Shown piece by piece: positions 46,764-64,000 of a DNA stretch of 64,000 nucleotides. The position numbers were made by a program, and so were the translations under genes. Location: the NCBI RefSeq assembly GCF_026410305.1, contig NZ_JAPMLQ010000005.1, forward strand, positions 1 to 64,000, given 5' to 3'. The notes beneath the pieces were generated by a model. It was not told where the DNA came from, searched no databases, and saw only the letters and a program-made list of their open reading frames with translations. The stretch is from Sulfitobacter sp. F26204. Its GTDB lineage: Bacteria > Pseudomonadota > Alphaproteobacteria > Rhodobacterales > Rhodobacteraceae. Every line of letters starts with the position of its first letter. The first letter of the stretch is position 1.

Positions 46764-46765
46764 CT

Positions 46766-48256: not shown

Positions 48257-48711
48257 TGCGCCTGCTCCAGAGTCATGCGCAAGGACACCTGCGCAGGTTC
48301 TGTCAATCGCGTCATTTCGACCGAGAGCAGGCGCAGACCGCTGGCGGATTCAAGATTTGCAATCCAAGTGGTCGCTTCGTTGTAGCCGAGTTTGGCAACT
48401 GTCACCCGCAATCGCGCACCTTCGGGGTCGAGACGCGACAGCGGTATGCCCGCGGCCTGCGCACTTTGAGTAACAAGGGGGGCTAATGGTGTGCTACTGG
48501 GTGTAGACACTACCTTTCGCGGGGCATCCTCGCGGGTTGTGCGGGCGATGTCCAGAATCGTGAGGTAACGTGCGATCCGATCCGCCTGAAGGCTGCGGTC
48601 CGACATAACCGGTTGCCAGACATAATACCAAAGTGCCAGCACCACGAGGATCGCACCCCCGCATGACACCATGATCTGTTCGCGCAGGGTGAGGTTACGG
48701 AATGCCCTCAT
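48253..48711 (-). CDS. gspM: Type II secretion system protein GspM
   Basis: A 152-residue bitopic protein: short cytoplasmic N-terminus (RNLTLREQIMVS), one membrane helix (about 15-32), a helical linker and a ferredoxin-like periplasmic domain (LRVTVAKLGYNEATTWIANLE). It forms the inner-membrane platform with GspL; the ATGA overlaps on both sides suggest equimolar translation. Confidence 0.85.
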   Translation of the reverse strand: MRAFRNLTLREQIMVSCGGAILVVLALWYYVWQPVMSDRSLQADRIARYLTILDIARTTREDAPRKVVSTPSSTPLAPLVTQSAQAAGIPLSRLDPEGARLRVTVAKLGYNEATTWIANLESASGLRLLSVEMTRLTEPAQVSLRMTLEQAQ

Positions 48712-49862
48712 CTCTGCACCGTCAATTCAGCGCGTGCAGCCCCGGCGTCGGCTGTTGCGGAACCGCTTGTGACACGCAGACCCGCCGACTTGAGCCGCGC
48801 CTCGGCCTGTTGCAATGCATCGAGGTCAGAGGCCTCTACGGTAAGGCGTAAACCGTCAGTGTCCCAATTCAATTGTCGAAACCTGAGCGCATCATCCGCC
48901 CCCAACAATGCACGCGCAACACTGTCCATCAAGGGCAAGAATGATGATCCCCGCTGTGGGCGGCTTTGCGCATGCAATTGACGCAATATCACTTCCGGCG
49001 CGGTCTCGACCGATACAGAGGGCAGCCGGGCCGCAATGGCTGTTGTGGCTTGTTCCCGTAAACCCTCGGCGATGGCACGCTGCGCGCGGGCATCAGCGAC
49101 GGCGATTGCCAGATGGACGATGCCGGCCAGCATGACACTTGCGACGAGGTATTTCAGCGGTCGCCACAGACCGCGTGAAGGTCGATGGATGCCTTGCCGC
49201 AAATCGTTTTCGATAAGGGCCGGTTCAGTTGGAATTCCTTTATCGGAGCTGTCGGTCCACACCATTTCCGAAGGCAGGGGGGCTCCATAGTTCTCCACGT
49301 CAGGTTTGTTCGCTGCACGCCACAGCAATCCCAACTTATCTGCAAGCGCGACAAACCCCGTCCCGTCAGACACCCGCACCAGAACCCTGTTGCCTTCGCG
49401 GTAAGTCCGCCAGCTTTCCCGCCCGTCTACGCCGGATGTCCCCGTGGGGATCAATGTCTGTTCAGGGATCAAGGGTGTGTCCGGCCACTCTGTCACCCAT
49501 TTCTTCATGAGTTCCGCATCAACGACTGCGGCCAGAGTCTTGCCTTCTCGTGTTGATCTGCACAGTGCGAAATGGACGTGTTCAAGCGGCTGACCCACAC
49601 GTTCCTCCAACGCGAAGGGGAGCGCAGCCTGACGTTGCCGGGTAGATCGCACTGGCAGATCAATCACGTGAAACGTGACTAATTCAGCAGGAACGACATA
49701 TATGGCATTGTGTTGCTCAGCCGTAAGCAGGAAGGTGAATGCCTGATCCTGCGCCGCAATGGCAGTGCTTGGAAATGGCACAACCACAGCTTCTTCGGGC
49801 CCGGAACCTTCCCGCGCTTTCGCCTTATCTTTTTGATTTGAATACGTTTTATTGCTTTCCAC
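48708..49862 (-). CDS. gspL: Type II secretion system protein GspL
   Basis: A 384-residue protein with a cytoplasmic actin-like domain (about 35-230; VTFHVIDLPVRSTRQRQAALPFALEE), one membrane helix near 240-262 and a small periplasmic domain. It recruits GspE to the membrane. The GTG start at 49862 lacks a clear ribosome site, so an internal start is possible. It is the first gene of the leftward gspLMEF block and diverges from gspG. Confidence 0.84.
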   Translation of the reverse strand: MESNKTYSNQKDKAKAREGSGPEEAVVVPFPSTAIAAQDQAFTFLLTAEQHNAIYVVPAELVTFHVIDLPVRSTRQRQAALPFALEERVGQPLEHVHFALCRSTREGKTLAAVVDAELMKKWVTEWPDTPLIPEQTLIPTGTSGVDGRESWRTYREGNRVLVRVSDGTGFVALADKLGLLWRAANKPDVENYGAPLPSEMVWTDSSDKGIPTEPALIENDLRQGIHRPSRGLWRPLKYLVASVMLAGIVHLAIAVADARAQRAIAEGLREQATTAIAARLPSVSVETAPEVILRQLHAQSRPQRGSSFLPLMDSVARALLGADDALRFRQLNWDTDGLRLTVEASDLDALQQAEARLKSAGLRVTSGSATADAGAARAELTVQR

Positions 49863-49964
49863 TACGCATTTCTATGTTAAGGTCAAAACGGGAATTCTTG
49901 GCGGCATTCCTGTCTGGTGACGACGACACTACATTACTAACGGTGCAGACAGGAAAAGAGTTTC
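49863..49964. promoter_or_regulatory. Divergent gspL-gspG promoter region with a 10-bp inverted repeat
   Basis: TTCCTGTCTG (49907-49916) and CAGACAGGAA (49946-49955) are perfect inverted copies 29 nt apart. The right arm covers the AGGAAAAGAG ribosome site of gspG. In RNA the arms could form a long-loop hairpin hiding that site. In DNA the half-site centres are 39 bp apart, which would suit an operator. The region must also hold promoters for both T2SS half-operons. Confidence 0.55.
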
Positions 49965-50444
49965 ATGATGTTGAATAAACCTGCAGTTGGCAAACGCAAA
50001 AAGCGACGTGACGCGCAGGCCGGTGTGACGCTGATCGAGATGATGGTGGTTTTGGTCATTATCGCTGTGGTCGCCGCCATGGTGGTACCAAGTGTGATCG
50101 GCCGCCCTGACGAGGCGCGCGTGACTGTCGCGCAAAGTGATCTGCGCTCCATCGCGGGTGCCCTTGAAATCTACCGGCTTGATAACCGGACCTATCCGAC
50201 GACTGCACAGGGTTTGTCCGCATTGGTCAACCGCCCGACAGTACCGCCAGAGCCGGTGAGTTGGGCCTCTGACGGCTATCTCAGTGTCATGCCGCAAGAC
50301 CCGTGGGGCACCCCTTATGTTTATCGCTCTCCGGGACAAAGCGGGCAATTCGATCTGATCACTTTGGGTGCTGACGGCCAACCCGGCGGGGAAGGTGTGA
50401 ATGCCGACATTGCCTTTGGCAATAGGCAAGCCGCCAATGGGTAA
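49965..50444 (+). CDS. gspG: Type II secretion major pseudopilin GspG
   Basis: A 159-residue pseudopilin. The prepilin site AG-VTLIEMMVVLVIIAVVAAMV has Glu5 and is followed by PTTAQGLSALV and DPWGTPYVYRSPG, the calcium-binding C-terminal region of GspG. The leader of about 19 residues is basic. It forms the body of the pseudopilus. Two ATG codons lie side by side (49965 and 49968). Confidence 0.92.
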   Translation: MMLNKPAVGKRKKRRDAQAGVTLIEMMVVLVIIAVVAAMVVPSVIGRPDEARVTVAQSDLRSIAGALEIYRLDNRTYPTTAQGLSALVNRPTVPPEPVSWASDGYLSVMPQDPWGTPYVYRSPGQSGQFDLITLGADGQPGGEGVNADIAFGNRQAANG

Positions 50445-50916
50445 AGAGCGGATCACGGACAGTGGCGTCACCTTGATCGAAGTACTTGTCGTACTGGCAC
50501 TGATCGGTGTGAGCGCCGGTATTGTGACCTATGCCCTGCCGTCCGGCGCAGGAACCCGCACGCTCGATCAGGAAGCCGCGCTGCTTGCATCGCGCCTGAA
50601 TATCGCCGCCGAGCGCAGTTTGGTCGGCGGGCATCAGTACCGGTTGGACTGGACCGCTGCAGGGTACAATTTTGCGCAGTGGCGAGACTCCGCATGGCAC
50701 AAAGCATCAACTGCCCCCCTGAACCAGGATCACACATTGACGGGTAGCACCCTGTTGACTGACCGCGACGGCAGGCGACAAGGTGATCTGCGGATAACGC
50801 CGGATTTGCTGCCTGCGCCGCAAGGCGGTAGCAGATTGCAGTTGGAGGCCGGTATGTTTCGTCGGGTGGTGCTCTTTGACGGTGCGGCCGCCAATATCTT
50901 GCAGGAGGAGCGTTGA
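50437..50916 (+). CDS. gspH: Type II secretion minor pseudopilin GspH
   Basis: A 159-residue pseudopilin with DSG-VTLIEVLVVLALIGVSAG (Glu5 present) and a GspH-type C-terminal half (LASRLNIAAERSLVGGHQYRLDW). ATG 50437 overlaps the gspG stop by 8 nt and gives a normal short leader. An in-frame ATG at 50401 has a better purine-rich site but an unusually long leader. Confidence 0.83.
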   Translation: MGKERITDSGVTLIEVLVVLALIGVSAGIVTYALPSGAGTRTLDQEAALLASRLNIAAERSLVGGHQYRLDWTAAGYNFAQWRDSAWHKASTAPLNQDHTLTGSTLLTDRDGRRQGDLRITPDLLPAPQGGSRLQLEAGMFRRVVLFDGAAANILQEER

Positions 50917-51290
50917 TGGACAACCACAGCCGCGACGCGGGGTTTACATTGATCGAAACGCTTGTTGCTCTCGCGGTTTTGGCGATCGGATCCATGACGT
51001 TGATGACGGGTGTAGAACGTCACGCGGCAGGCACAAGAGGGTTATCAGATCGCGTTGTAGCACGGTGGGTGGCAGAAAATGCGCTGGCGGCCACAACATT
51101 GGGCATCACGGTTGATCCACGCTGGACCGTGGCGCTTGGGGTGGAATGGTCCGTCACACAAGAAGCCCGTCCCTTGACCGGGTCCGGCTTGCATGCGGTC
51201 ACGGTACAGGTGGCGGATGCCGCAGCCGGAGCCAATGCCTCTCTTGTGTCATTGACGGGTTACCTTGCCCTGATGGGGGCGGTGCAATGA
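50916..51290 (+). CDS. gspI: Type II secretion minor pseudopilin GspI
   Basis: A 124-residue pseudopilin: DAG-FTLIETLVALAVLAIGSM with Glu5, then WVAENALAATTLG, typical of GspI. ATG 50916 follows AGGAGG and overlaps the gspH stop by one base (TGATG). It forms the tip complex with GspJ and GspK. Confidence 0.87.
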   Translation: MDNHSRDAGFTLIETLVALAVLAIGSMTLMTGVERHAAGTRGLSDRVVARWVAENALAATTLGITVDPRWTVALGVEWSVTQEARPLTGSGLHAVTVQVADAAAGANASLVSLTGYLALMGAVQ

Positions 51291-52171
51291 CATCCGGGCG
51301 ACTATGGCTGCTTACCCTATTTGTCGGTCTGGGCTTGCTTGCCTCACTGGTCTTTGCTGCATTGCGGCTTGGCTGGCATGCGGGAGGTTATACCGGCCTG
51401 CTGCCTTTGGAGGTGTCCGTGCCGCCTGCCGATCAAGTGGAAGATACCCCTCATGACATCAACACGATCCTTGCATTGGCACCTTTTGGACAGACCCCCG
51501 CGCCGGATCAAGTTTCGCAAGCCGGCTCATCAGCAATGAAATCTGACGTAGCACTGCGCGGCGTTTTGGTCGATCCTGATCCAGCGCAATCGCGCGCTTT
51601 TATCCTGGTAAATGGCAGCACAGCGGTCGTTCGCATCGGAGAAACGGTGCAAGCCGCCGAACTTGTTGCAATCAATTCGGATACGATCACACTCAAACAT
51701 GCAGACGGCCTGCTTGTTATAGGGTTTGACGGTATCGAAAACGGCAACGACCCGTTGACGCAGACGGCCGAACCCACGGTCGAGGACAACAACGATCCCT
51801 TTGCCAGGCTGGCAGCGGCCATCGTTCCCGGACAGGGATCTATTGATTTACGCGAGGCACCCCCGCCGGAAACGACGGATGAATATATCGACCTGTGGCG
51901 TGACCGGATCACCCAGAATCCACAGGCGGCAATGGATGCGGTTGGTGTCGAATTGGTGGAAAACGGTTATCGTATCAATGCAGAGCCCAACATTGGTGTC
52001 ACTTTGGCTGGGCTAAGGCCCGGCGATGTGGTAACGCGGTTGAACGGTCAAGCCGTTGGTGATCTGGATCAGGATCGCGCCCTATATGATACCGTGGCTG
52101 CATCGGGCATCGCGCGTTTGGAAGTGGTGAGGGACGGGCAAGCATTGTTGCTGACGTTCCCGTTGAGGTAG
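51287..52171 (+). CDS. gspC: Type II secretion system protein GspC
   Basis: A 294-residue bitopic protein: N-terminal helix (about 5-28), HR domain (about 85-150; LRGVLVDPDPAQSRAFILVNG ... VRIGETV) that contacts GspD, and a C-terminal PDZ domain (AEPNIGVTLAGLRPGDVVTRLNGQAV). The ATG overlaps the gspI stop; the frame is open upstream to 51146 but without support. It couples the inner platform to the outer-membrane secretin. Confidence 0.85.
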   Translation: MTSGRLWLLTLFVGLGLLASLVFAALRLGWHAGGYTGLLPLEVSVPPADQVEDTPHDINTILALAPFGQTPAPDQVSQAGSSAMKSDVALRGVLVDPDPAQSRAFILVNGSTAVVRIGETVQAAELVAINSDTITLKHADGLLVIGFDGIENGNDPLTQTAEPTVEDNNDPFARLAAAIVPGQGSIDLREAPPPETTDEYIDLWRDRITQNPQAAMDAVGVELVENGYRINAEPNIGVTLAGLRPGDVVTRLNGQAVGDLDQDRALYDTVAASGIARLEVVRDGQALLLTFPLR

Positions 52172-54114
52172 TGAGCTTGGAAACCAGAAAAATCTGCAGA
52201 TTTGTTGCCCATCTCTTGCTTCTGGCATGGTTGTTGCCGACGGCGCTTGCGGCACAGCTTGCCCCGCTCAACGATACAGATGCCGATTTTACCATCAATC
52301 TGCGCAATGCTGAAATCTCTGTATTGGCTGAACAGGTATCAGAGATCACGCAACGCACTTTGGTCATCAATCCCGGGCTGACCGGCGATGTCACCGTCAT
52401 TTCCGCGCAACCCTTGACCCAAGCGGGTGTTTGGTCGCTGTTTCAGTCCATGCTGCGGGTGCGCGGCTTTGTAGCGGTCGAAGCCGGTGTCATCTGGGAA
52501 ATCGTGCCTGAAACGCAATCAATCGCCAAAGGCGGCACCACTCCGCCGGGAGGGCGCGGCGGGGATCAGGATGTCATCACCAAGTTGGTACCGCTCGACC
52601 GCCTCCCCTCTGCCGAGGCAGTTCGGGTTTTGCGCCCGCTTGTCGCGCAGACGGGATACATCGAAGCACTGACAGATCCCAACGCGATCATCATCACCGA
52701 TACACAGGCCAATGTGGACCGCATCGTCAACATCGCCCGCACCTTCGACACCCCCGAAGAACAACGTACCGAAGTCATCCGGTTCAACTTTGCCGAAGCT
52801 GATACCGTAGCCCAGGCCATGTCCGACGTTCTGGGCACATCCGGCACAGGCGCAAGAATCTCGGTTGATACCGCCTCGAACCTGCTGCTCGTACGCGGTA
52901 CAGAGCGCGACATCAGCCAGATAAGACAGCTGGCGCGCGATCTGGATGTTGCCCCGCGCAATAACCCACAGGTAGAAAAGCGCACGCATCTGTACGCGCT
53001 GAAATTCGGCGATGCCGAAATCGTGGCCGAGATCGTTGCCAATACACTGCAAGGTGGCACCGACATTGTTAACCCCGTCGCCGATGCGGTAGAGGGCGAA
53101 GGTGCCCCCCTGCCCTCTGGACCGGCGCCCGAAGTATCGGTTCAAGCCTCGACAGAGACCAATTCGATCGTCATCCGCGGCACCGCACGCCAGATTCAGG
53201 AAGCCTCCAACCTGATTGCAGCGCTTGATCAGCGCCCGGCCCAGGTCATGATCGAGGCAGCCATTGTAGAAGTCTCGGGTGAAGTCGCAGAACGCCTTGG
53301 CGTGCAGCTTGGCCTTGGGGACAACATCCCGCGTGGCGGGATCGCGGCCACATCGTTCAGCAACGGTGGCACATCGCTGGGCAATGTCCTTAGTGCACTT
53401 GGCGTCAGCCAGGCAGCCGGTCTTGCCAGCGGTCTGACTTTGGGCGGTTCCGCGGACAATTTCGGCATCCTGGTGCAAGCGCTCTCGCAATCGACGCAGG
53501 CGAACCTTTTATCCACACCGTCGATCACCACCACAGACAACAAACCCGCAACAATTGTCGTAGGCCAGAACGTACCGTTTCGCACCGGATCATTCGCCAC
53601 TGATGGCAATACAGCCACACCATTTACCACCATCGAGCGGCGCGATGTGGGCATCACAATGCAAGTGCTGCCGCGCGTTACCTCCAATGGGATCGTGCGA
53701 TTGGACATCTCGCAGGAAGTTTCAAGCCTTGTCGATGCGAATGTCGAGGGGGCTGCGGACTTGATCACCAACCGCCGTGTGATTGAAACAACCGTTCAGG
53801 CCCAGGACGGTGGAACTGTTGTCCTTGGCGGGCTGATCACTGACGACAATAGTTCCGTCAATGGAAAGGTGCCAGGCCTTGGCGATGCGCCGATAATCGG
53901 CGGGCTGTTCCGTTCGCGCAGCAAGAACCAGACGCGCCGCACCCTGTTTGTCTTTATGCGCCCTACGGTGATCGACAGTCAGCACAAGGCCAGTACCGTT
54001 GCACGCCGCCAGTTTCAAAAAATTCGCAAGGCAGACGCCTCTGAGCCGCCACGGAGCCTGTTGAAAGAACGCAAGGTGGAGCGTTTGCCGTTGGAAATTA
54101 ACGGGCTTTATTGA
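52171..54114 (+). CDS. gspD: Type II secretion secretin GspD
   Basis: A 647-residue outer-membrane secretin. Signal peptide (about 1-28), N0 domain (FTINLRNAEISVLAEQVSEIT), N1-N3 domains with repeated IVIRGTARQIQEASNLIAALD-like KH folds, then the secretin barrel (VGQNVPFRTGSF; GTVVLGGLITDDNSSVNGKVPGLGD; TLFVFMRPTVI). The GTG at 52171 overlaps the gspC stop (TAGTG). No GspS pilotin gene is seen. Its 3' end overlaps the convergent DUF4198 gene by 7 nt. Confidence 0.92.
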   Translation: MSLETRKICRFVAHLLLLAWLLPTALAAQLAPLNDTDADFTINLRNAEISVLAEQVSEITQRTLVINPGLTGDVTVISAQPLTQAGVWSLFQSMLRVRGFVAVEAGVIWEIVPETQSIAKGGTTPPGGRGGDQDVITKLVPLDRLPSAEAVRVLRPLVAQTGYIEALTDPNAIIITDTQANVDRIVNIARTFDTPEEQRTEVIRFNFAEADTVAQAMSDVLGTSGTGARISVDTASNLLLVRGTERDISQIRQLARDLDVAPRNNPQVEKRTHLYALKFGDAEIVAEIVANTLQGGTDIVNPVADAVEGEGAPLPSGPAPEVSVQASTETNSIVIRGTARQIQEASNLIAALDQRPAQVMIEAAIVEVSGEVAERLGVQLGLGDNIPRGGIAATSFSNGGTSLGNVLSALGVSQAAGLASGLTLGGSADNFGILVQALSQSTQANLLSTPSITTTDNKPATIVVGQNVPFRTGSFATDGNTATPFTTIERRDVGITMQVLPRVTSNGIVRLDISQEVSSLVDANVEGAADLITNRRVIETTVQAQDGGTVVLGGLITDDNSSVNGKVPGLGDAPIIGGLFRSRSKNQTRRTLFVFMRPTVIDSQHKASTVARRQFQKIRKADASEPPRSLLKERKVERLPLEINGLY

Positions 54115-55278: not shown

Positions 55279-55821
55279 ATGACCACCAGAGATGAAATCG
55301 AAGATCTGATTGCCAGGGTCAGTCTGGGCGACCGCAAGGCTTTTTCTGCTTTGTATGAGGCGACTTCGGCGAAACTCTTTGGCGTCTGTCTTCGTATCTT
55401 GAATAACCGTGCAGAAGCGGAGGAGACACTACAAGAAGCCTTTGTGAGGATTTGGCAGAAGTCGGGTAGCTATGCCGCAAACGGGTATAGCCCGATGACC
55501 TGGCTCATCACTTTGACGCGTAATCTCGCGATTGACAAACTGCGCACCAGAAAAGGACGCACTTTCGATATAGATGAAATGTACGACCTCAGCGATGACA
55601 AACCCGGGCCCGAAGCTCAGGCCATCGCAACATCGGAGCGTGCACAGATAGATGCCTGTATGGCCGAACTGGAGCAAGAAAAAGCAACCGCAGTGAAATC
55701 TGCTTACCTTGAAGGCTATAGCTATCAGGAACTGGCAACTCGGTACGATGTGCCGCTAAATACAATGCGAACCTGGCTGCGCCGCAGTCTGATAAAATTG
55801 AAAGAATGTCTGACTCGATGA
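55279..55821 (+). CDS. ECF-type RNA polymerase sigma factor
   Basis: A 180-residue sigma factor with region 2 (LYEATSAKLFGVCLRILNNRAEAEETLQEAFVRIWQ; about 25-60, including the core-binding and -10-recognition helices) and region 4 (YLEGYSYQELATRYDVPLNTMRTWLRRSLIKLK; about 142-174). Its stop overlaps the anti-sigma gene by 16 nt. The RskA-like partner places it near the SigK-type group. It probably recognises the three-block element found before itself and before the DUF4331 gene (inference). Confidence 0.9.
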   Translation: MTTRDEIEDLIARVSLGDRKAFSALYEATSAKLFGVCLRILNNRAEAEETLQEAFVRIWQKSGSYAANGYSPMTWLITLTRNLAIDKLRTRKGRTFDIDEMYDLSDDKPGPEAQAIATSERAQIDACMAELEQEKATAVKSAYLEGYSYQELATRYDVPLNTMRTWLRRSLIKLKECLTR

Positions 55822-56504
55822 CCCCGCAAGAAGATCATAGCAACGACGACGCCCTTGCGGGTGAATATGCGCTGCATCTTCTTGATGCGGAGGAACGCCA
55901 AGCCTTTGAAGACCGCATGGTGACGGACTCCCGCTTGCTAGAACGCGTGAGGGACTGGGACCACCATTTTGCTGCAATGGCGGAAAGTTTTACGCCTGTA
56001 GTGCCGTCTTCCGACATCAAGGTGCGTATCGACGACAGGTTATTCGGAACTGCAGGCGACAAACCCGGGTCAAGATGGCGCTGGTTCACCAGCTTCGGAC
56101 TGGGCGCGACTGTCGCATTGATTGCCATCATCGCCGTCCTGTCCTTTGTCAATCCGCCCCCTGCAGAACCTGCCTTCACAGCACAGGTTGCAGCCGAAGA
56201 TGCATCGCTGGTTGTTGTCGCAAATTATTTCCCGCAAACAGGTAGGTTGCAGATCGACCGACTGGTCGGAGCAGCGGCTGATGGCCGTGCACTCGAATTG
56301 TGGCTGATCGCCGAGGGTGCCTCTGCACCGGTATCACTTGGCCTGCTTTCAGCCGATGCCGTGACGGCACTGCAAGTCAATTCGAGTCTCGCGCCACAAA
56401 TTGCCGGTGCTACCTTGGCAATCAGTGACGAACCTTCCGGCGGATCCCCGACCGGCGCGCCAACGGGCGATGTCCTTGCCGTGGGTCAAGTCAGCGAAAT
56501 CTGA
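55806..56504 (+). CDS. Membrane anti-sigma factor (RskA-like)
   Basis: A 232-residue protein. The N-terminal cytoplasmic anti-sigma domain (LAGEYALHLLDAEERQAFEDRM; RVRDWDHHFAAMAE) precedes one membrane helix at about 98-118 and a periplasmic beta domain with VVANYFPQTGRLQIDRL and RALELWLIAEGASAPVSLGLL, as in pfam10099. It should hold the upstream sigma factor inactive until a periplasmic signal leads to its release. The overlap with the sigma gene supports coupled synthesis. Confidence 0.87.
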   Translation: MSDSMTPQEDHSNDDALAGEYALHLLDAEERQAFEDRMVTDSRLLERVRDWDHHFAAMAESFTPVVPSSDIKVRIDDRLFGTAGDKPGSRWRWFTSFGLGATVALIAIIAVLSFVNPPPAEPAFTAQVAAEDASLVVVANYFPQTGRLQIDRLVGAAADGRALELWLIAEGASAPVSLGLLSADAVTALQVNSSLAPQIAGATLAISDEPSGGSPTGAPTGDVLAVGQVSEI

Positions 56505-56932
56505 GGATCGGTTGAATGACCCTGTCATTTTGCTGTGAACCTGTGGTGATGCGCGGGCTGGTAACAGGCCTTTACCTGATTAAACGTCAAAGGAATTGAC
56601 CGCACCACGGGTTTCCCAAACCTCTCAACCAGCGTCCCTGCGGGTGCCTTTGGCATTTTGATCCTGTTTGCTTTCCTGCTGTGTGTAAGGGAACTGCAGT
56701 TTTCGCCTATTCCTGAGCCGCTATTAGGCAAGATTTAGACAAGACTTATCCGAAAATGCACCTGTTTCTAAGGGCATGTGAAACGGTCCTTGACTGAGAC
56801 GCTGGCACGGCTCAGGCGGTGCATCCGGACCCCCTCAATTGCGCGTATCCATTCCGGTACCTCAATGTGCGGGAATATGCCGACCCCTATTTTGAACCCT
56901 ATACCTCTCCTCAACAAAAGGGAGAGAAACAG
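56505..56932. other. Intergenic region upstream of luxI
   Basis: About 430 bp with no supported gene. AATGAC-CCT-GTCATT followed by TTTT at 56515-56531 is a weak hairpin that may end the sigma operon. CCTGT and ACAGG lie 19 nt apart near 56539-56567, too far for a normal lux box (CTGT-N10-ACAG). No clear lux box or promoter was found. A GGGAGAG ribosome site precedes the luxI ATG. Confidence 0.35.
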
Positions 56933-57607
56933 ATGTTCACAACGATCCAGCCACACCAGACAGCCCAGAATAGGGACCTGCTGATCAAGGCCATGAAGCT
57001 GCGCAAGCAGGTGTTTGCAGACCAGTTAAAATGGAATGTGCCGGTCCAGGACGACATGGAATATGACATCTATGACATGATGGGTGCGTCCTATGTTGTC
57101 TGGTGCTCTGAGGATCGTGAAACCATGTATGGCATGGTGCGTCTGATGGTCACGACCGGGCCGACATTGCTCCATGATGTGTTCCATGCCACCCACGATA
57201 GCAGCACCGATCTGATTGCGGATGATGTCTGGGAAGGCACCCGCATGTGCATCAACGAAACCGCGATCCAGCGTGATTTTGGTCTTGACGCGTCACAAGC
57301 CTTCAACCGCCTGTTTCTGGGTCTTGCCGAGGCTGCAAATGCTTTGGGCATTCGAAAGCTGGTCTCGAACTTTGAGGCCTGCATGAGCCGGATCTACCGT
57401 CGCGCCGGGCTTCGCTATGACCTGCATGGCAAGGCGGATGGCTATGGGGAAAAACCGGTTTTTTGTGCCTCCTTTGAGGTGACCCCCGCAGTGATTGCAC
57501 AGATGCAGCAAAAGATCGGTATCCCGTTCCCCCTGTTCCGCCAGCCCGAAGGTTTCCTGCGTGCCGTTGGCATCGATCAACCTCGGTCCCCGCGCCTTGC
57601 GGCCTGA
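56933..57607 (+). CDS. Acyl-homoserine-lactone synthase (LuxI family)
   Basis: A 224-residue LuxI-type autoinducer synthase. All usual conserved residues are at the expected positions: Arg24, Phe28, Trp34, Asp45, Asp48, Arg70, Phe84, Glu101 and Arg104 (KLRKQVFADQLKWNV; YGMVRLMVTTGPTLLHDVF; WEGTRMCI). It makes a signal from S-adenosylmethionine and an acyl-ACP or acyl-CoA. ATG 56933 follows GGGAGAG; a longer frame from 56819 is rejected. No luxR lies within the window. The gene is followed 22 nt later by a set of acyl-chain-building genes, which may supply a special acyl group (inference). Confidence 0.92.
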   Translation: MFTTIQPHQTAQNRDLLIKAMKLRKQVFADQLKWNVPVQDDMEYDIYDMMGASYVVWCSEDRETMYGMVRLMVTTGPTLLHDVFHATHDSSTDLIADDVWEGTRMCINETAIQRDFGLDASQAFNRLFLGLAEAANALGIRKLVSNFEACMSRIYRRAGLRYDLHGKADGYGEKPVFCASFEVTPAVIAQMQQKIGIPFPLFRQPEGFLRAVGIDQPRSPRLAA

Positions 57608-57629
57608 TTTCTGGAGTGAAGGAAAAACC

Positions 57630-58076
57630 ATGACCTTGACTGCCTCTTCCCCGCCCACTCTGGATCAACTGAACACGATGATCGGCGAACTGCGCCAGAC
57701 CTTGCCTTTTCTTTACGTCGATAAAGTCTGTGCAGTATCCGATGACCTTACCGAGATTCTGGGCGCTGTGACCTTTGCCCATCCGGAGCGTTACCTGCCG
57801 CCCTCTCGCAATCCTCTGTTGATCGAGGCACTTGCGCAATTGTCGAGTTTGTTGCTGCGCAACTTTACCAATTCACGCGCCGGAGGTGTCCTGGCTTCGG
57901 TCGAGGATGCCAGATGGTTGGGTACACTTGACCCCCATACACCCGCGGAACTCTCAGTTCGGATACACAAGATTTCATTTCCACTTTTTTCGCTGACCGG
58001 AACGGTGCGCCAAAACGGCGAGATCCTTTCAATTGTCGATTTTACCACCCGATCCAACGCCGGAGACCCCCAATGA
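57630..58076 (+). CDS. Hotdog-fold protein, FabZ-related with altered active-site motif
   Basis: A 148-residue hotdog-fold protein. The helix motif NPLLIEALAQLSSLLLRN retains the dehydratase Glu (Glu66). The canonical GHFPGxPxxPG is replaced by FAHPERYLPPSRN, with a single His51 15 residues before the Glu instead of 14. It may be a dehydratase with changed substrate or an inactive partner of the next gene's product. The ATG has an AAGGAAAAA site and ends in an ATGA overlap with that gene. Confidence 0.75.
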   Translation: MTLTASSPPTLDQLNTMIGELRQTLPFLYVDKVCAVSDDLTEILGAVTFAHPERYLPPSRNPLLIEALAQLSSLLLRNFTNSRAGGVLASVEDARWLGTLDPHTPAELSVRIHKISFPLFSLTGTVRQNGEILSIVDFTTRSNAGDPQ

Positions 58077-58513
58077 ATGCCCCCATTCTTTCGCTGCTGC
58101 GTCAGCGTCCGCCCTTCCTTTTTGTCAACTCATATGAGCCGCTACCGGACGGTGGGATTGAAACGATTTACCATGTGTCCGGTGCAGAGCCTTTTTTTGA
58201 AGGCCATTTCCCCGGAGAGCCGGTCTTTCCAGGGGTGCTCATCATCGAAGCAATGGCACAGGCAGCGCGGGTGGCATTGGCCCATCAGTTCGGCGAACGC
58301 AAAGCGGGTCTTATGGCCGGAGTCAGCAAAGCCCGATTTACCAAGCCGGTAATTCCGCCGCAGGACCTGCGGATTCGCGCGGTGTTGCTGGACACGGATC
58401 AGACACTGACCACCGGTTTTGCCAATGCGAAATGCACCGCGTTCATCGGTCGCCAACGTGCGGCGCGTGCTGATGTTCAACTCTCCATTCGTGAGGCCGC
58501 CACCGCGGCCTGA
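58073..58513 (+). CDS. 3-hydroxyacyl-ACP dehydratase, FabZ type
   Basis: A 146-residue hotdog dehydratase with an intact motif GHFPGEPVFPGVLIIEAMAQ: catalytic His45 and Glu59. The N-terminal RPPFLFVNSYE is also typical. It should dehydrate a 3-hydroxyacyl-ACP to the trans-2-enoyl form. The coupled upstream homologue suggests a heterodimer, as seen in aryl-polyene systems (analogy only). Confidence 0.87.
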   Translation: MNAPILSLLRQRPPFLFVNSYEPLPDGGIETIYHVSGAEPFFEGHFPGEPVFPGVLIIEAMAQAARVALAHQFGERKAGLMAGVSKARFTKPVIPPQDLRIRAVLLDTDQTLTTGFANAKCTAFIGRQRAARADVQLSIREAATAA

Positions 58514-58613
58514 CGAAGACCCCCGCCCACCCTTCAACCGCAACCTTTAACCCTTAAACCACCTGGGTCGTGCCGGCCCGAAATAAACTCAACCAACAGT
58601 TAGGACAAAATTC

Positions 58614-58901
58614 ATGACCAAATCTATTGCTGACATCCTGAAAGAAGACGTTCTGTATACCGGCCTTGAACTGGGCGATCTCGGGATCGATCTGGAAGAA
58701 ATCACCGACACTGTCACCATCATCGGAGATGACGGTCTGGCCTTGGACAGCGTCGATGCTCTGGAAATCGTTTCTCTGTTGAAGCGGCATTTCAACATTG
58801 ATGTCGAAGCCCCCAACAAAGAGTTCTTCGAAGATCACCTTGGCACCTTTGACCGACTTGTTTCCTTTGTCGAGCGTTCTGCCCAGAAGGTGGCCGCATA
58901 A
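58614..58901 (+). CDS. Acyl carrier protein
   Basis: A 95-residue acidic helical protein. GLALDSVDALEIVSLLKRHF contains the phosphopantetheine-attachment Ser46. A TTAGGA ribosome site lies about 10 nt before the ATG. It is longer than housekeeping AcpP, with an extra N-terminal segment, so it is a dedicated carrier. The stop overlaps the next gene by one base (TAATG). Confidence 0.88.
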   Translation: MTKSIADILKEDVLYTGLELGDLGIDLEEITDTVTIIGDDGLALDSVDALEIVSLLKRHFNIDVEAPNKEFFEDHLGTFDRLVSFVERSAQKVAA

Positions 58902-59977
58902 TGATACGCCCCGTACCAGAGACCGCATTGATCACCGGTACGGGCCGGTATCTTCCGGGGGAGCCGGTCGGATCTGACCAGCTTTCCCAGGCGATGCCGA
59001 CCCTACCCATTGACATGTTTCACCAGTACTTTGGTGTGGATACCCGCCATTATGTACTGGACCCCGCAACAGGGGCACGCCGCAAGGTCACTGCAGAAAA
59101 TGGTGATGAGGTCGAACTCACCACCACAGAAATGGGCGCGCTGGCCGCTTTGGTTGCGCTGAAATCTGCCGGCCTCGTGGCGCAGGATGTGGACGCGATT
59201 ATCACCAATTCCACCACACCCGATGGGATGTTGCCGCCCTTTGCGCTGCAACTGCAACGACGTCTGAACATTGAAAATGCACAGTTACTCGATGTACGCG
59301 GCGGATGTTCAGCCTCCATTCAGGCACTGAATGTGGCGCAGATGTTGGTGGCAACTGGCAAGGCACGAAATGTGCTGATCGTCAGTTCGGAATGCACGAG
59401 CCAATATTATCTCAAGAAGCTGCGCGAAATGGAGGAGCCGCGTTTTAACGATGTTGTAAACGGATTGCTTTTTGCAGATGGCGCGAGTGCCGTCGTGGTC
59501 GAGGCGTCTTCGGTTGCGAAAGAGCGCGACAAGGACGGATTTATCATTGGATATTCCGGCACGCAGTCCTGCTTTGCCGATCACAAGGCAGGCTTTTCGC
59601 TCCACACCAAATCAGATGGCCGGATCGAGACCCGTCATAACCACAAAGCCATCAGCGCCACGCTGCCCATGGTTGTCGCCCGTGGCTATGAAGAACTGTC
59701 AAAGCACACAGGCCGCGGCCCGGGTGAATTTGATGTCACGATCATACCGCAGGTCAACAAGTCAATGGTGGATCTAGTTTCCGATGCGGGCAGTTCTCCC
59801 GAGGAATTGGGCTTTTGCTATTACGGCAATGAAACTGGCAACATTCCTGCAGCAGCCATGTTCATGGCCCTGGATTTCGCGCGCGAGCGCGGGCGTATCA
59901 AACCCGGCGACAAAATCGGGATTCTCTCCATTGAAACAACCTCTTGGAACTATGCGGTTGCTGAGCTGGCTGCCTGA
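58901..59977 (+). CDS. 3-oxoacyl-ACP synthase III-like protein with atypical catalytic set
   Basis: A 358-residue thiolase-fold protein of the KAS III (FabH) group. The nucleophile Cys136 is in DVRGGCSASIQAL, and an Asn lies in YGNETGNIPAAAM. In the place of the usual PHQAN stretch it reads IIPQVNKSM, so the catalytic His appears to be missing. Such enzymes often act as starter loaders or acyltransferases. It may prime the ACP with an unusual starter or release the chain (inference). Confidence 0.82.
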   Translation: MIRPVPETALITGTGRYLPGEPVGSDQLSQAMPTLPIDMFHQYFGVDTRHYVLDPATGARRKVTAENGDEVELTTTEMGALAALVALKSAGLVAQDVDAIITNSTTPDGMLPPFALQLQRRLNIENAQLLDVRGGCSASIQALNVAQMLVATGKARNVLIVSSECTSQYYLKKLREMEEPRFNDVVNGLLFADGASAVVVEASSVAKERDKDGFIIGYSGTQSCFADHKAGFSLHTKSDGRIETRHNHKAISATLPMVVARGYEELSKHTGRGPGEFDVTIIPQVNKSMVDLVSDAGSSPEELGFCYYGNETGNIPAAAMFMALDFARERGRIKPGDKIGILSIETTSWNYAVAELAA

Positions 59978-60003
59978 TCCTCAATCTAAAAGGACCCTTA
60001 TCC

Positions 60004-60666
60004 ATGTCTGTTAAAACTGTAATTGTCATTGGGGAGACCGGCACGCTGAAAGCCTGCCAGATCGCCAGTCTAAAAGCCCAGGGCCACAAGGTCATTGAAT
60101 TCGACGCCGATGTCAAAGCGGTTGACCTGAACGCCTGTCGTGATCTGATCGAAGGTGAGCTGCGGGTCATTTTCACCCCCTATATGCATGACGAAATGGC
60201 ATTGCTGGACGCCGACACATCCGCCCTGATCGCAATGGTCGGAAAAAAGACCAAGGCGTTCCTGACACAGGCCCAGGCCGCTTTGCAATTGTTGATGGGT
60301 CGTGGCGGCGGCCAGTTCTGGGTTGCCGACTTTGATGACAGCTTTGCCTATCATCTGGAAACCCCCTGTGCGCCAATCTGTGCGCAGGCCCGGGCCGGGG
60401 CAGTACGATCGCTTGCCAAAGAGTACTCTCGGATGAAAATTTCGGTCAATTCGATGTTGGTACAACCGGTTTCCGACCCCAGCACGGCTTCGATGTTTCG
60501 TAAAGCCTCGGCCGAATTGAAGTCATATGCCATGCGCTACAAGCCCAATGACGCAGGCGCTGTGGCCGATATGCTGACCGATTTTGTCGGCACTGGGAAA
60601 CTGCAGTTTTCAGGAAACATCATCGGAACCGGCACGGGTATCGTGCAGGGCCACCTCACTTCATAA
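60004..60666 (+). CDS. Degenerate short-chain dehydrogenase-like protein
   Basis: A 220-residue protein with SDR traces: an N-terminal beta-alpha unit (TVIVIGETGTLKACQI, glycine pattern degraded) and ARAGAVRSLAKEYSRMKISVNSMLVQPVSDP, the helix after the active site. The YxxxK motif expected near 125-129 reads ICAQA, so Tyr and Lys are absent. It is probably not a reductase. It could be a scaffold or a regulatory partner of the FabG-like enzyme encoded next to it (inference). Confidence 0.7.
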   Translation: MSVKTVIVIGETGTLKACQIASLKAQGHKVIEFDADVKAVDLNACRDLIEGELRVIFTPYMHDEMALLDADTSALIAMVGKKTKAFLTQAQAALQLLMGRGGGQFWVADFDDSFAYHLETPCAPICAQARAGAVRSLAKEYSRMKISVNSMLVQPVSDPSTASMFRKASAELKSYAMRYKPNDAGAVADMLTDFVGTGKLQFSGNIIGTGTGIVQGHLTS

Positions 60667-60678
60667 GGGAGAAAACGA

Positions 60679-61428
60679 ATGTCTGAGGCATTTCTAAAGG
60701 ACCGCGTCTGCATTGTGACAGGCGGCACCCGTGGCATTGGGCGCGCAATTGCCGAATATCTGGCCCGAAACGGTGCGAAACTTGCTGTGACCTATCGTGG
60801 CGACGAAACCGCTGCGCAAGCAACCCGCACAGCCTTGGCCGAAACAGGAGCCGAAGCGCTGGTTCTGCAATCTGACCTGACCAGTTCCGAAGGCGCGAAA
60901 ACACTATTGGGTGTTGTTCAGGATCGCTTTGGTCGGTTGGACGCCTTGATCAACAACGCAGGCCGGACCTTTGATGGGGCTTTTGCCGCGCTGGAACTGG
61001 CGGATTACGAACCTGTTGTCGATACCAATCTGTTGGGCACAATACGTCTGGCACTAGCGGCGGTGCCGATGCTGCGCAAGACACGCGGCAATATTGTGAA
61101 CCTTTCCTCGCTCGCAGCTGTATCCGGCAAAGAGGGTCAGGTTGTCTATTCCACCACCAAGGGCGGAATCAACGGCATGACCCGCATGTTGGCGCGGCAT
61201 CTGGGCACGGATGGCATACGCGTCAATTCAATCGCGCCGGGCTTCATTCGCACTGACATGGTCAATGAGCTTCCGGAAAGCGCCTATTCCCACATTCTCG
61301 ACAGCACTGCCCTGCGCGACATGGGCAATCCCGAGGATGTGGCCAAGACTGCTGCCTTTCTGGCGTCAGAGATGTCGAGCTACGTGAATGGTTCGGTGAT
61401 CCGTATCGATGGGGGATTCCACAGATGA
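60679..61428 (+). CDS. 3-oxoacyl-ACP reductase, FabG type
   Basis: A 249-residue SDR with an intact TGGTRGIG motif (14-21), NNAG (92-95) and the Ser143/144, Tyr157, Lys161 catalytic set (YSTTK). The C-terminal SSYVNGSVIRIDGG is FabG-like. It would reduce the 3-keto group on the ACP-bound chain. A GGGAGAAAA ribosome site lies 12 nt after the degenerate SDR gene; the stop overlaps the ketosynthase gene by ATGA. Confidence 0.88.
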   Translation: MSEAFLKDRVCIVTGGTRGIGRAIAEYLARNGAKLAVTYRGDETAAQATRTALAETGAEALVLQSDLTSSEGAKTLLGVVQDRFGRLDALINNAGRTFDGAFAALELADYEPVVDTNLLGTIRLALAAVPMLRKTRGNIVNLSSLAAVSGKEGQVVYSTTKGGINGMTRMLARHLGTDGIRVNSIAPGFIRTDMVNELPESAYSHILDSTALRDMGNPEDVAKTAAFLASEMSSYVNGSVIRIDGGFHR

Positions 61429-63839
61429 CTTTGAATACAAACAACCAAACCTTCCAACAAGCGCAGAACAGTGCACAAGAAGTGTTCCTGCCTTTCGAAG
61501 CGGCACAGTGTCGCCCGGTTCTGTCCGGTATCGGTGTCGTCACGCCAGTTGCCGATGATCTGGACCGCCTGTGTGATCAGGCATTGTCCGGCAAGAACGC
61601 CTTTCGCAAGATCGATCGATTTGACACCGACTGGTGTGAAACCGATCTGGCCTGTGCTTTTGATCTGGCTGATGACGCCAATTCAATGCCAGACAGCATG
61701 CGCCGTTCTTGGATGGACCGGGCTGTGTGGTATCTTCTCGATGCGCTTGATCGTGCACTTGATGATGCTGGCCTGGATCTGAAATCTTATGATCCCGAAC
61801 GCGTGGCGATTGTTCTGGGCACTTCCCATTCAGGACTCGTCACCACAGAGGATCTGTTCGAAGCCTCGCGCGACAAGACACTTGCACAGACCGATCCGCG
61901 GCGCGTTCTGGCGATTCCGGCGAGCCACATCTGTTCCGCTGTTGCAGCTGCAACCGGCGCAAAGGGCGTACGCCGCACGATCTCTTCTGCTTGTGCCTCC
62001 TCTACCGGGGCGATGGGTTCGGCGGCTGATCTGATCCGTTCCGGCCGGGCAGATGTCGTAATAACGGGGGGAACCGATACTGTTTCGTTGGCGGTACTGG
62101 CAGGATTCAACAGCCTGCGGGCCTTGGCTGCGGATGGCTGTTCGCCCTTTGGCACCAATCCCGGAATAACATTAGGCGAAGGTGCCGGGGTGTTCATCCT
62201 GGAACGTCTTGACCAGGCTGCAGAGCGTGGTGCGGGGGTACAGGCGGAAATACTGGGGTATGCGCTATCCGGAGATGCCCATCATGCAACCGCACCGGAT
62301 GATGATGGCGACGGCATCGCGCGTGTTCTGAATGCTGCATTGGCAAACGCGGGCGTCGCTCCGGATGAGGTGGATTACCTTTCTGCCCATGGCACCGGCA
62401 CGGATGCAAACGACGTTGCCGAAAGCCGCGCCACCGCTGCGATCTTTGGCAATAGAGTGCCTCTTTCCACGCCCAAATCCATCTTTGGTCACACATTGGG
62501 GGCCAGTGGTGTGATCGAAACAGCCTTGACCTTGGGTGCTGCAGGAAGAGGCATGATCCCCCCGACTCTGGGCTTTAGCGGTTTGCGCGCAGGCTGCGAA
62601 GACCTTGACTTTGTACCAAACGCGCCCCGTGCCAGACAGGTCGATACCTTTGTGTGCAACAACTATGGCTTTGGAGGGAACAATGCCTCTGTGGTGTTGC
62701 AGCGATCTGTGTCGCGCAAGGTGCGCGGCGCATCTGCAAAACAGAGACAAAACCGCGTTTTTATCTCCGGCAAAAGCACGGTGAACGCCTCAGGACGGGT
62801 CGGTTCAGAAGATCTGGTGAACATGATGTTCGCGCAGGATGAACCCCAAAACACTATCTACAAAGTTACGGATGATCGCCTGCCCAAGGCGTTCAAGCGA
62901 CAGATCGGGCGAACCTCGCCGATGGTGAAATTTGCAGTTTCGGCCACGGGTGAGGCTTTGGACCGGGCAGGATTGAGCGACGACCTGCGGACGGAAACCG
63001 GATTGATCTATTCCGTTGTGACCAGCGCGCAAAAATCTACCGAAAAATACATGGAATCCATTGCAATCGATGGTCCCGGCTTTGCCAGCGCAACCCAGTT
63101 TCCCAACACAACCAACAATGCGCCTGCAGGCCAAGTTTCAATCGCCTATGGACTGAAAGGGTACAACACGACGCTCTGTGGTTCGGCGGGGGGTATGGGT
63201 TATGCCATCGAACTGATTGCCAATGGACGTCAGGACCGCGTGATCAGCGCAGCAGCGGATGAACACACCGACCTGTTGGATCAGTTCTATGATCATGCGG
63301 GCCTCTTGGCGGGGGAACCTGTGACACCTTTTGACGATCAACCGGGCATCAATTTTGGTGAAGGTGCGGCGGCTATTCTCTTTGAAAGCGAGGCATCCCT
63401 GACAAAGCGGCAGACCGCACCAATGGCCGAGATAACCGGCTGGTCCGAAGGACAGGATGGCACCTATCTGGGTATTGGCCGCAAGGGTGCAGCACTGACC
63501 CGTGCCATTGACGCGGCATTGCTGCAGGCAGGATTGGGCGATGCAGATGTTGATCTTGTCGTCGCGGGGGGCACCGGACCGGGCTATTTCGCCAAGGCGG
63601 AATTGACGGCGCTCGCGCGTTTCGATGAGGCTCAGGTCAAACGGCTTAGCCCTGTGACAGGAAACGGATATGGCCCGGCACATACCCCGATTGCCATTCT
63701 TGGCGCTGGGGCAAGTGCTGTGGCCGAAGCCTGTCTGCCCGATCACAGCCGACCGCATAACGTCCTGTGTGCTGGTCTGGACATTACAGGCGTGGCCTTT
63801 GCCGCCGTGGTCAGCCGCATTGCGGAGGACCTGACATGA
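61425..63839 (+). CDS. Fused ketosynthase and chain-length-factor-like protein
   Basis: An 804-residue protein with two thiolase-fold ketosynthase halves. The first (about 30-425) is complete: Cys190 (SSACASS), His322 (AHGTGTD), Lys351 and His356 (KSIFGHT). The second (about 445-800) is degenerate. Its nucleophile region is TTLCGSAGGM, where Cys585 does not align cleanly, and AGGTGPG replaces AHGTGT, losing one His; His753 may remain. This resembles KS-alpha/KS-beta (chain length factor) pairs of type II polyketide and aryl-polyene systems, here fused. It should condense malonyl units to a defined length (inference). Confidence 0.83.
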   Translation: MTLNTNNQTFQQAQNSAQEVFLPFEAAQCRPVLSGIGVVTPVADDLDRLCDQALSGKNAFRKIDRFDTDWCETDLACAFDLADDANSMPDSMRRSWMDRAVWYLLDALDRALDDAGLDLKSYDPERVAIVLGTSHSGLVTTEDLFEASRDKTLAQTDPRRVLAIPASHICSAVAAATGAKGVRRTISSACASSTGAMGSAADLIRSGRADVVITGGTDTVSLAVLAGFNSLRALAADGCSPFGTNPGITLGEGAGVFILERLDQAAERGAGVQAEILGYALSGDAHHATAPDDDGDGIARVLNAALANAGVAPDEVDYLSAHGTGTDANDVAESRATAAIFGNRVPLSTPKSIFGHTLGASGVIETALTLGAAGRGMIPPTLGFSGLRAGCEDLDFVPNAPRARQVDTFVCNNYGFGGNNASVVLQRSVSRKVRGASAKQRQNRVFISGKSTVNASGRVGSEDLVNMMFAQDEPQNTIYKVTDDRLPKAFKRQIGRTSPMVKFAVSATGEALDRAGLSDDLRTETGLIYSVVTSAQKSTEKYMESIAIDGPGFASATQFPNTTNNAPAGQVSIAYGLKGYNTTLCGSAGGMGYAIELIANGRQDRVISAAADEHTDLLDQFYDHAGLLAGEPVTPFDDQPGINFGEGAAAILFESEASLTKRQTAPMAEITGWSEGQDGTYLGIGRKGAALTRAIDAALLQAGLGDADVDLVVAGGTGPGYFAKAELTALARFDEAQVKRLSPVTGNGYGPAHTPIAILGAGASAVAEACLPDHSRPHNVLCAGLDITGVAFAAVVSRIAEDLT

Positions 63840-64000
63840 GCCCAGTTCACGAGGTGAAAAACCTAGGCCGTCTGTCCCAGGCGTTTCCGATCGAGCCAAT
63901 GCCCTTCAAGGTCGTCTATGCCGATACTGACGCGATGGGCGTAGTCTATCACGCACGATACCTGGACATCGCGGAACGCAGCCGTACAGAATTCGTCGCC
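63836..64000 (+). CDS. Acyl-CoA/ACP thioesterase, YbgC-type hotdog (3' truncated by window edge)
   Basis: The first 55 residues of a 4HBT-family thioesterase. VVYADTDAMGVVYHARYLDIAERSR is the hallmark active-site block, with Asp32. It overlaps the ketosynthase stop by ATGA, so it belongs to the same operon. It may release or edit the finished acyl chain; cluster genes beyond it are out of view. Confidence 0.82.
   Translation, partial: MSPVHEVKNLGRLSQAFPIEPMPFKVVYADTDAMGVVYHARYLDIAERSRTEFVA

Follow-up and report, generated by a model that had tools for sequence, protein, structure and literature searches.

We analysed a 64,000-nucleotide window of Sulfitobacter sp. F26204 (Rhodobacteraceae; contig NZ_JAPMLQ010000005.1, positions 1 to 64,000 of the forward strand), near the right edge of which an intact luxI gene heads a set of genes for type II acyl-chain synthesis. 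A first-pass annotation, made from the letters of the window, had named these genes from luxI to a thioesterase and proposed that they supply either an unusual autoinducer or a polyene-like metabolite under quorum control. All of them are present and intact on the plus strand, with short gaps or overlaps. Following the contig past position 64,000, as the annotation had advised, revealed that the set does not end with the window: export genes, a putative phosphopantetheinyl transferase (PPTase) gene and a membrane protein gene carry it to about 68.75 kb, where a convergent luxR follows. Neighbouring genes are spaced by −14 to +100 bp, and luxI lies 22 bp from the first gene behind it. The contig (251,628 bp; contig C23 of genome G000 in our numbering) belongs to a repABC replicon, with RepA/B/C-type genes at 86.9–90.3 kb. 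The features are listed below; positions above 64,000 continue the count along the same contig and lie past the window.

56831–56878, plus strand: putative quorum-responsive promoter block upstream of luxI, from an alignment of three promoters.
56933–57607, plus strand: luxI, intact gene for an acyl-homoserine lactone (AHL) synthase (PF00765, E = 1.5e-25).
57630–58076, plus strand: hotdog 1, half of a FabZ-like dehydratase, degenerate (NCBIfam FabZ, E = 7.8e-4, under the cut-off).
58073–58513, plus strand: hotdog 2, FabZ-like dehydratase (PF07977, E = 5.1e-20; motifs GHFPGEPVFPG and EAMAQ).
58614–58901, plus strand: private acyl carrier protein (ACP; PF00550, E = 7.3e-5; motif LDSVDALE).
58901–59977, plus strand: protein like 3-ketoacyl-ACP synthase III (KAS III-like; PF08545/PF08541 and PDB alignments).
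60004–60666, plus strand: degenerate short-chain dehydrogenase/reductase (pseudo-SDR; no Pfam match, YxxxK pair absent, homologues in the clusters of relatives).
60679–61428, plus strand: FabG ketoreductase (PF13561, E = 1.2e-63; motifs YSTTK and GGTRGIG).
61425–63839, plus strand: fusion of ketosynthase (KS) and chain length factor (CLF), 804 aa (PF00109/PF02801, two stretches each).
63836–64306, plus strand: 4HBT thioesterase (PF13279, 4HBT_2, E = 6.8e-17 for the whole gene); the window shows 63836–64000.
64303–64920: periplasmic-type protein, 205 aa.
64907–65632: ABC ATPase.
65629–66843: FtsX/MacB-like permease.
66836–67576: LolA-like protein (PF17131).
67580–68197: putative PPTase (no Pfam match).
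68249–68749: membrane protein.
68794–69513, minus strand: luxR (PF03472, E = 1.2e-26; PF00196, E = 1e-14).

The LuxI protein is full length, matches PF00765 at 90.3 bits against a cut-off of 24, and aligns end to end with eight other LuxI proteins; the luxR product carries both LuxR domains (PF03472 and PF00196). On contig C25 the strain has a second strong luxI, again with a luxR next to it. A third match to PF00765, on contig C20, is partial (27.5 bits, 68 of 183 profile positions) and was taken by eye for another GNAT-like acyltransferase.

A neighbourhood search for LuxI together with a KS-CLF fusion, a check suggested by the first-pass annotation, recovered the pairing in one other organism, Pelagimonas phthalicica DSM 26923 (NZ_SOAP01000001.1, about 1984.9–2005.6 kb). 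Its cluster shares 13 of the 16 F26204 genes by sequence, mostly in the same order, and luxR (minus strand) and luxI (plus strand) stand directly beside the cluster, at its end. Identities reach 58% for LuxI, 48% for LuxR, 40% over 790 aa for KS-CLF and 48% for FabG; hotdog 1 has its counterpart by position only, and neither the KAS III-like protein nor the last membrane protein found a match in that cluster. The annotation had taken a neighbourhood not conserved among relatives as a sign against the link; here luxI, luxR and 11 further genes recur jointly, which led us to reject chance adjacency. The two clusters differ in that luxI of P. phthalicica lies at the far end and has a promoter block to itself, in that the hotdogs there are fused, and in additional P. 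phthalicica genes for a FeeM-like membrane N-acyltransferase (PF21926, 27.0 bits, right at the cut-off), a GcvT-like protein (PF01571), a second ACP, a malonyltransferase-like protein, two KSs, a FabZ-like protein and a second FabG. In both organisms the polyene cluster is closely preceded by genes that we named by eye as type II secretion genes (42396–54114 in F26204; L096:1460-8039 in our P. phthalicica locus); this was not counted as synteny, the identity of the two GspD proteins being only 29%.

The second line of evidence is the promoter. Within the block upstream of luxI, CAATTG-N14-GGTACC at 56836–56861 is followed, after 11 nt, by the −10-like hexamer GAATAT. The 4.9 Mb genome of P. 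phthalicica has two exact copies of the CAATTG-N14-GGTACC pattern, one before luxI and one before the polyene operon, where it precedes the double-hotdog gene that opens the operon. Among the promoters of F26204 luxI, P. phthalicica luxI and the P. phthalicica polyene operon, 26 of the 48 columns of the block are identical, whereas 200 dinucleotide shuffles averaged 14.9 such columns and peaked at 18; the distance from block to luxI start codon is 102 bp in both organisms. A protein-coding cause of this conservation was rejected: in P. phthalicica the LuxI frame, extended upstream from the ATG, runs into a stop, the 26 identical columns fall on all three codon phases (9, 8 and 9), and the third copy is in a different frame. 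Exact motif counts were four in F26204 (G000), one in G055, none in G309, two in G1036 and none in each of G1037–G1040; a reversed-pattern control gave, in the same genome order, 0, 0, 1, 0, 1, 0, 1 and 0.

We then scanned eight further luxI loci (L050, L056–L061 and L063; the scan left out L051–L054, L062 and L064–L080) with a profile built from the three promoters. The best site fell 96–106 bp before luxI in all eight, and in five its score exceeded those of all 200 mononucleotide shuffles. Before the second F26204 luxI and before luxR, the profile scored under the shuffle mean. From this comparison we read the block as a putative LuxR box plus −10 element of this LuxI group. Scans of the sequence for sigma-70-type promoters and for terminators gave no excess over shuffles (6 versus 7.6 and 9 versus 13.3, respectively). 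Directly before luxI, at 55279–56504, lie genes for an extracytoplasmic function (ECF) sigma factor and an RskA-like anti-sigma factor, a possible second input to the operon.

A scan of named genomes with the F26204 and Paracoccus alcaliphilus LuxI proteins as queries yielded 26 loci; the scan is not exhaustive, because it is based on two short peptide patterns. The five closest LuxI proteins (56–61% identity) were those of P. phthalicica, P. siganidrum, an uncultured Rhodobacteraceae metagenome-assembled genome (MAG), P. alkanivorans and a Gemmobacter MAG. All five genomes contain KS matches, with a match spanning the fusion only in P. phthalicica. In P. alcaliphilus (a plasmid record; LuxI/LuxR 58%/47%) the pair stands beside nonribosomal peptide synthetase (NRPS) and polyketide synthase (PKS) genes, and in P. 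alkanivorans (56%/46%) beside NRPS genes; the examined stretches of both had no cassette match beside luxI. Both also carry a PPTase-like gene with luxI and luxR (31.4 bits in P. alkanivorans; 26.4 bits, narrowly below the cut-off, 27, in P. alcaliphilus). In P. siganidrum, luxI and luxR accompany an ABC gene; the Rhodobacteraceae MAG has, within 10 kb of luxI, genes for a PPTase, an AMP-binding protein, a permease (33%) and a LolA-like protein (24%); no such cluster was seen in the luxI neighbourhood of the Gemmobacter MAG. This LuxI/LuxR type thus accompanies clusters that differ in their chemistry, which is what one expects of a regulator. Of luxR-linked clusters, 47% are reported to contain luxI (PMC5872303). 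We also observed that a TPR-like protein gene directly follows luxI in P. alcaliphilus (L050:9716-10243) and Pelagimonas (L055:10704-11219), and that its F26204 homologue (64303–64920; L003:10303-10920) adjoins the ABC exporter; the F26204 and P. alcaliphilus proteins share 30% identity over 148 aa (Smith-Waterman z of 18 against shuffles).

The enzymes themselves point to a polyene. In the KS-CLF fusion, the N-terminal half has the ketosynthase Cys-His-His and the C-terminal half keeps a Cys and lacks both His motifs (alignment with six other fusions); the protein matches both KS and CLF chains in the PDB. By its sequence, the fusion has the features of a type II polyene synthase, for which a polyene product is predicted. 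FabG has as its best NCBIfam match the 3-oxoacyl-ACP reductase family TIGR01830 (236 bits, under its cut-off of 298); the name of PF13561 mentions enoyl reductase, yet the best NCBIfam matches of this gene are FabG. The Pfam and NCBIfam scan found no enoyl reductase in the cluster, and a private ACP, a ketoreductase and a dehydratase are all present. Since ketoreductase and dehydratase are there and enoyl reductase is absent, a conjugated polyene chain would be expected by analogy with known type II pathways.

Hotdog 1 scores only 19.4 bits with NCBIfam FabZ, far under the curated cut-off of 113, and has no Pfam match. In P. phthalicica and in an alphaproteobacterial genome, G309, the double hotdogs are fused, and hotdog 1 corresponds by position to their N-terminal half. 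A single-sequence AlphaFold2 model of hotdog 1 (mean predicted local distance difference test, pLDDT, 55.6) had FabZ chains as its 40 best listed PDB matches (best E = 1.4e-6), and we regard the protein as divergent, with a FabZ-like fold in a low-confidence model. A Pelagimonas protein whose score attains the Pfam cut-off for ACPS aligns with the putative PPTase at 26% identity over 87 aa (E = 6e-4).

The KAS III-like protein retains Cys and Asn, leaving the Cys-His-Asn triad of condensing FabH incomplete; the column of the FabH catalytic His holds Pro in alignments to 2ebd, 4ryb and 6a9n, and in a fourth alignment 5by7 itself has Pro there. Decarboxylative condensation is doubtful because of this replacement, and transfer of a starter or of the finished chain seems the likelier role. 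Streptomyces homologues of this protein adjoin KS-CLF fusions; taken with the Pro of 5by7, this suggests that these proteins may form one non-condensing group.

Homologues of the pseudo-SDR occur in the clusters of P. phthalicica, G309, Vibrio coralliilyticus and B. stagnalis. A catalytically dead SDR accompanies ACP and FabG in five clusters, one of the andrimid type and one from Burkholderia included (60004–60666 in F26204; L036:10603-11220; L052:11641-12351; L096:10057-10707; L037:12541-13245), and it may serve as a partner of the ketoreductase or the dehydratase. The AlphaFold2 model of the pseudo-SDR (pLDDT 41) was too poor for a reading of its fold.

The CLF part is rare in the sampled genomes; the genome samples for these searches overlap one another. 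At E ≤1e-15, 30 of 294 other genomes of the family matched the CLF query (best 3.2e-19, 29% identity), and from their open frames of 404–638 aa we read these matches as ordinary KSs rather than fusions. At E 1e-25 the query matched one of 384 other genomes of the class, namely G309, and none of 397 others of the phylum; the P. phthalicica CLF found no match at E 1e-22 in 393 other genomes of the family. A scan of genome contigs with a CLF alignment confirmed no relative, nor was there a further CLF match in 16 other genomes of G309's order. Plasmid records were richer: 650 matched the fusion at E ≤1e-20, 18 of them covering at least 80% of it, and we opened five (V. coralliilyticus, Priestia, Enterobacter, Streptomyces and Lachnospira eligens). 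Megablast against plasmids found no near DNA match of the F26204 cluster.

G309 shares KS-CLF (45% over 797 aa), FabG (56%), pseudo-SDR (37%), ACP (36%), thioesterase (33%), ABC ATPase (46%), permease (36%) and LolA-like protein (27%) with F26204, and has a double hotdog. It also holds genes for GcvT-like, FeeM-like (33.1 bits, cut-off 27), acyl-transferase (PF00698) and PPTase (PF01648) proteins. No luxI or luxR match was found in the 28 kb scanned there.

We favour, with a probability of about 0.7, the reading that LuxR and LuxI govern an operon whose product is an exported polyene lipid or pigment; the control most likely restricts the lipid to dense populations. In this scheme, the AHL made by LuxI would activate the product of the convergent luxR, which would bind and act at the promoter block (56831–56878). 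If the genes are co-transcribed, signal and product would rise together, because luxI would be the first gene of the biosynthetic operon, and its place at the head would give positive feedback. ACP, FabG, the two hotdog dehydratases and KS-CLF would cycle through condensation, ketoreduction and dehydration, with no enoyl reduction, so that a conjugated polyene chain would grow on the private ACP, with the CLF half setting its length. The KAS III-like protein may prime or off-load the chain, the thioesterase would release it, the PPTase would activate the ACP, and the ABC ATPase, permease and LolA-like protein would carry the product towards the outer membrane.

The proposal of a polyene-like metabolite under quorum control therefore gained support from the promoter block common to luxI and the P. 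phthalicica polyene operon, from the presence of luxI and luxR beside the P. phthalicica relative, which has its own FeeM-like acyltransferase, and from two Paracoccus species in which a related luxI adjoins NRPS or NRPS/PKS genes, with no cassette match in the stretches examined. A precedent for such control is found in Teredinibacter, where deletion of the AHL synthase gene tbaI is reported to have abolished a red pigmentation tied to the butuanimides, a polyene antibiotic (PMC13151354). The same paper states that the type II proteins of andrimid and those of butuanimide lack similarity; butuanimide can therefore serve as a precedent for the control and not for this cassette.

Several observations weigh against this reading. 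Three more exact motifs in the F26204 genome lack a −10-like hexamer at the same spacing, and the single exact motif in G055, of the same genus, has GGATTA at the −10-like position. The profile scored below the best shuffle in two of the eight further loci and tied with it in one; three Paracoccus loci are close kin, and the scanned regions were only 116–600 bp. The block could also serve a different regulator, such as the ECF sigma/anti-sigma pair at 55279–56504. Moreover, the Pfam scan found no FeeM-like, GcvT-like or malonyltransferase genes in the F26204 cluster, which makes it unlikely that this cluster and that of P. phthalicica yield the same product.

The last point leads to the strongest rival, which we consider unlikely: LuxI would be an off-loading N-acyltransferase in place of the relatives' FeeM-like enzyme, joining a (poly)enoyl chain from the private ACP to S-adenosylmethionine, and the product would be a polyenoyl-homoserine lactone, or else a polyene lipid that bears homoserine lactone as its head. 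The cassettes of G309 and P. phthalicica are paired with FeeM-like N-acylating enzymes (33.1 and 27.0 bits), whereas LuxI is the only recognised N-acyltransferase in the F26204 cluster, and no FeeM match over the cut-off was found in the F26204 genome. The sole match there, at 22.7 bits, lies in a gene that by eye looks like olsB, with an olsA-like gene as neighbour, and was rejected. Because of these two absences, the use of the private chain by LuxI keeps a small probability; luxI is also the first gene, 22 bp from a dehydratase gene, and in Mesorhizobium japonicum the I1 enzyme is reported to require a linked crotonase for 2E,4E-C12:2-HSL (PMC10470506). On the other side, a LuxI of 58% identity stands in P. 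phthalicica with a cluster that has its own FeeM-like gene, so LuxI need not off-load the polyene there; the P. alcaliphilus LuxI stands beside NRPS/PKS genes with no cassette match; the F26204 LuxI shows by eye no outlying change in the alignment; and ABC-LolA export and a thioesterase would be unexpected for a diffusible AHL.

Less probable still is that the cassette serves both ends, providing an ordinary or modestly unsaturated chain for LuxI and, in larger amounts, the lipid product. The tight packing of luxI and cassette behind one promoter block would fit this, as would the breadth of PgaI2 of P. inhibens, which is reported to have accepted every substrate offered, among them unsaturated ones, apart from C4:0 and C20:0 (PMC6009203); however, other LuxI proteins of this group stand without a cassette. 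That luxI lies by chance on its own transcript, functionally unrelated to the genes behind it, we regard as very improbable: the lack of luxI and luxR around the G309 cassette and the rarity of the union (0 of 393 family genomes at E 1e-22) would agree with it, but the joint occurrence of luxI, luxR and cassette in a second organism, with the promoter block also on the polyene operon there, speaks against it.

Among the neighbours, a gene with a RES domain (a toxin-like family) adjoins luxR at contig positions 69699–70184.

The exported-polyene reading describes a new arrangement of known parts, not a new kind of signal. As far as our searches show, what is new is the pairing, in Rhodobacterales, of a KS-CLF polyene-export cassette with an AHL circuit, together with the luxI-headed operon and the shared promoter block; a literature search, with subscription papers mostly outside its reach, found no report of a luxI-linked KS-CLF cassette from Rhodobacterales. 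For these bacteria, the locus ties AHL quorum sensing to a polyene cassette of the type II KS-CLF kind that comes with outer-membrane-type export; it supplies a concrete promoter element open to direct testing, adds P. phthalicica DSM 26923 as a second cultured strain with a related cluster, and poses a clean question, whether any LuxI draws on a private acyl-chain synthase.

By gene content, the cassette is nearer to the granadaene and andrimid kind of type II polyene synthase than to aryl polyenes. The first-pass annotation had noted a resemblance to aryl-polyene clusters. The shared kinds of genes bear this out, since ape clusters likewise have a type II KS/CLF, a ketoreductase, two dehydratases, ACP, a thioesterase, a LolA-like protein and an outer-membrane logic (PMC8253772). 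Membership was rejected, because starter activation and a resistance-nodulation-division (RND) exporter are both missing: F26204 has no ApeH acyl-ACP synthetase (no AMP-binding match, the type for aryl starter activation, among the 16 genes), no RND exporter ApeM and no lysophospholipid acyltransferase ApeD. Its KS and CLF are fused, and the exporter accompanying the LolA-like protein (PF17131) is of the ABC/FtsX type in place of RND. The annotation had also considered the luxI link and the KS-CLF fusion foreign to aryl-polyene clusters, which agrees with the published ape gene table (PMC8253772).

The cyl genes, reported to produce a polyene, have in all operons a CylF aminomethyltransferase-like gene and a CylE-type acyltransferase gene, according to PMC6985545. 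Clusters of this granadaene type on the Priestia and Enterobacter plasmids resemble F26204 in KS-CLF (about 30% identity), ketoreductase, FabZ and ACP, and contain a GcvT-like gene; the Enterobacter cluster also has ABC export and a LolA-like gene. This set, on E. bugandensis plasmid pEC105227L (L049), is thus a granadaene-like one with an ABC exporter on a Gram-negative plasmid. Unlike cyl, F26204 has luxI, the pseudo-SDR and the KAS III-like gene and lacks a CylF-like gene: none of its 16 genes matched GCV_T, which is represented in P. phthalicica and G309, and a general Pfam scan, which involved no comparison with CylE itself, found no acyltransferase besides LuxI in the cluster. The G309 (L037, L038) and P. 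phthalicica (L096, L097) clusters unite the cyl hallmark, a GcvT-like protein, and a FeeM-like membrane acyltransferase with ABC-LolA export, and look like Gram-negative counterparts of granadaene clusters.

The plasmid of V. coralliilyticus OCN008 has ACP, pseudo-SDR, FabG and KS-CLF genes in the same order as F26204, with KS-CLF at 32% identity over 648 aa. Its cluster differs in the aminomutase, NRPS and PKS genes that follow, and the 25.8 kb stretch had no luxI, LolA-like or KAS III match. From its gene set we take it to be of the andrimid type, andrimid being an acylated beta-amino acid compound.

The R1-I1-mlr5639 circuit of M. japonicum likewise has luxI directly followed by an acyl-tailoring gene, as described in PMC10470506. 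There, a single crotonase-family gene is needed for the signal, whereas in F26204 luxI is followed by a whole set of genes for chain building and export.

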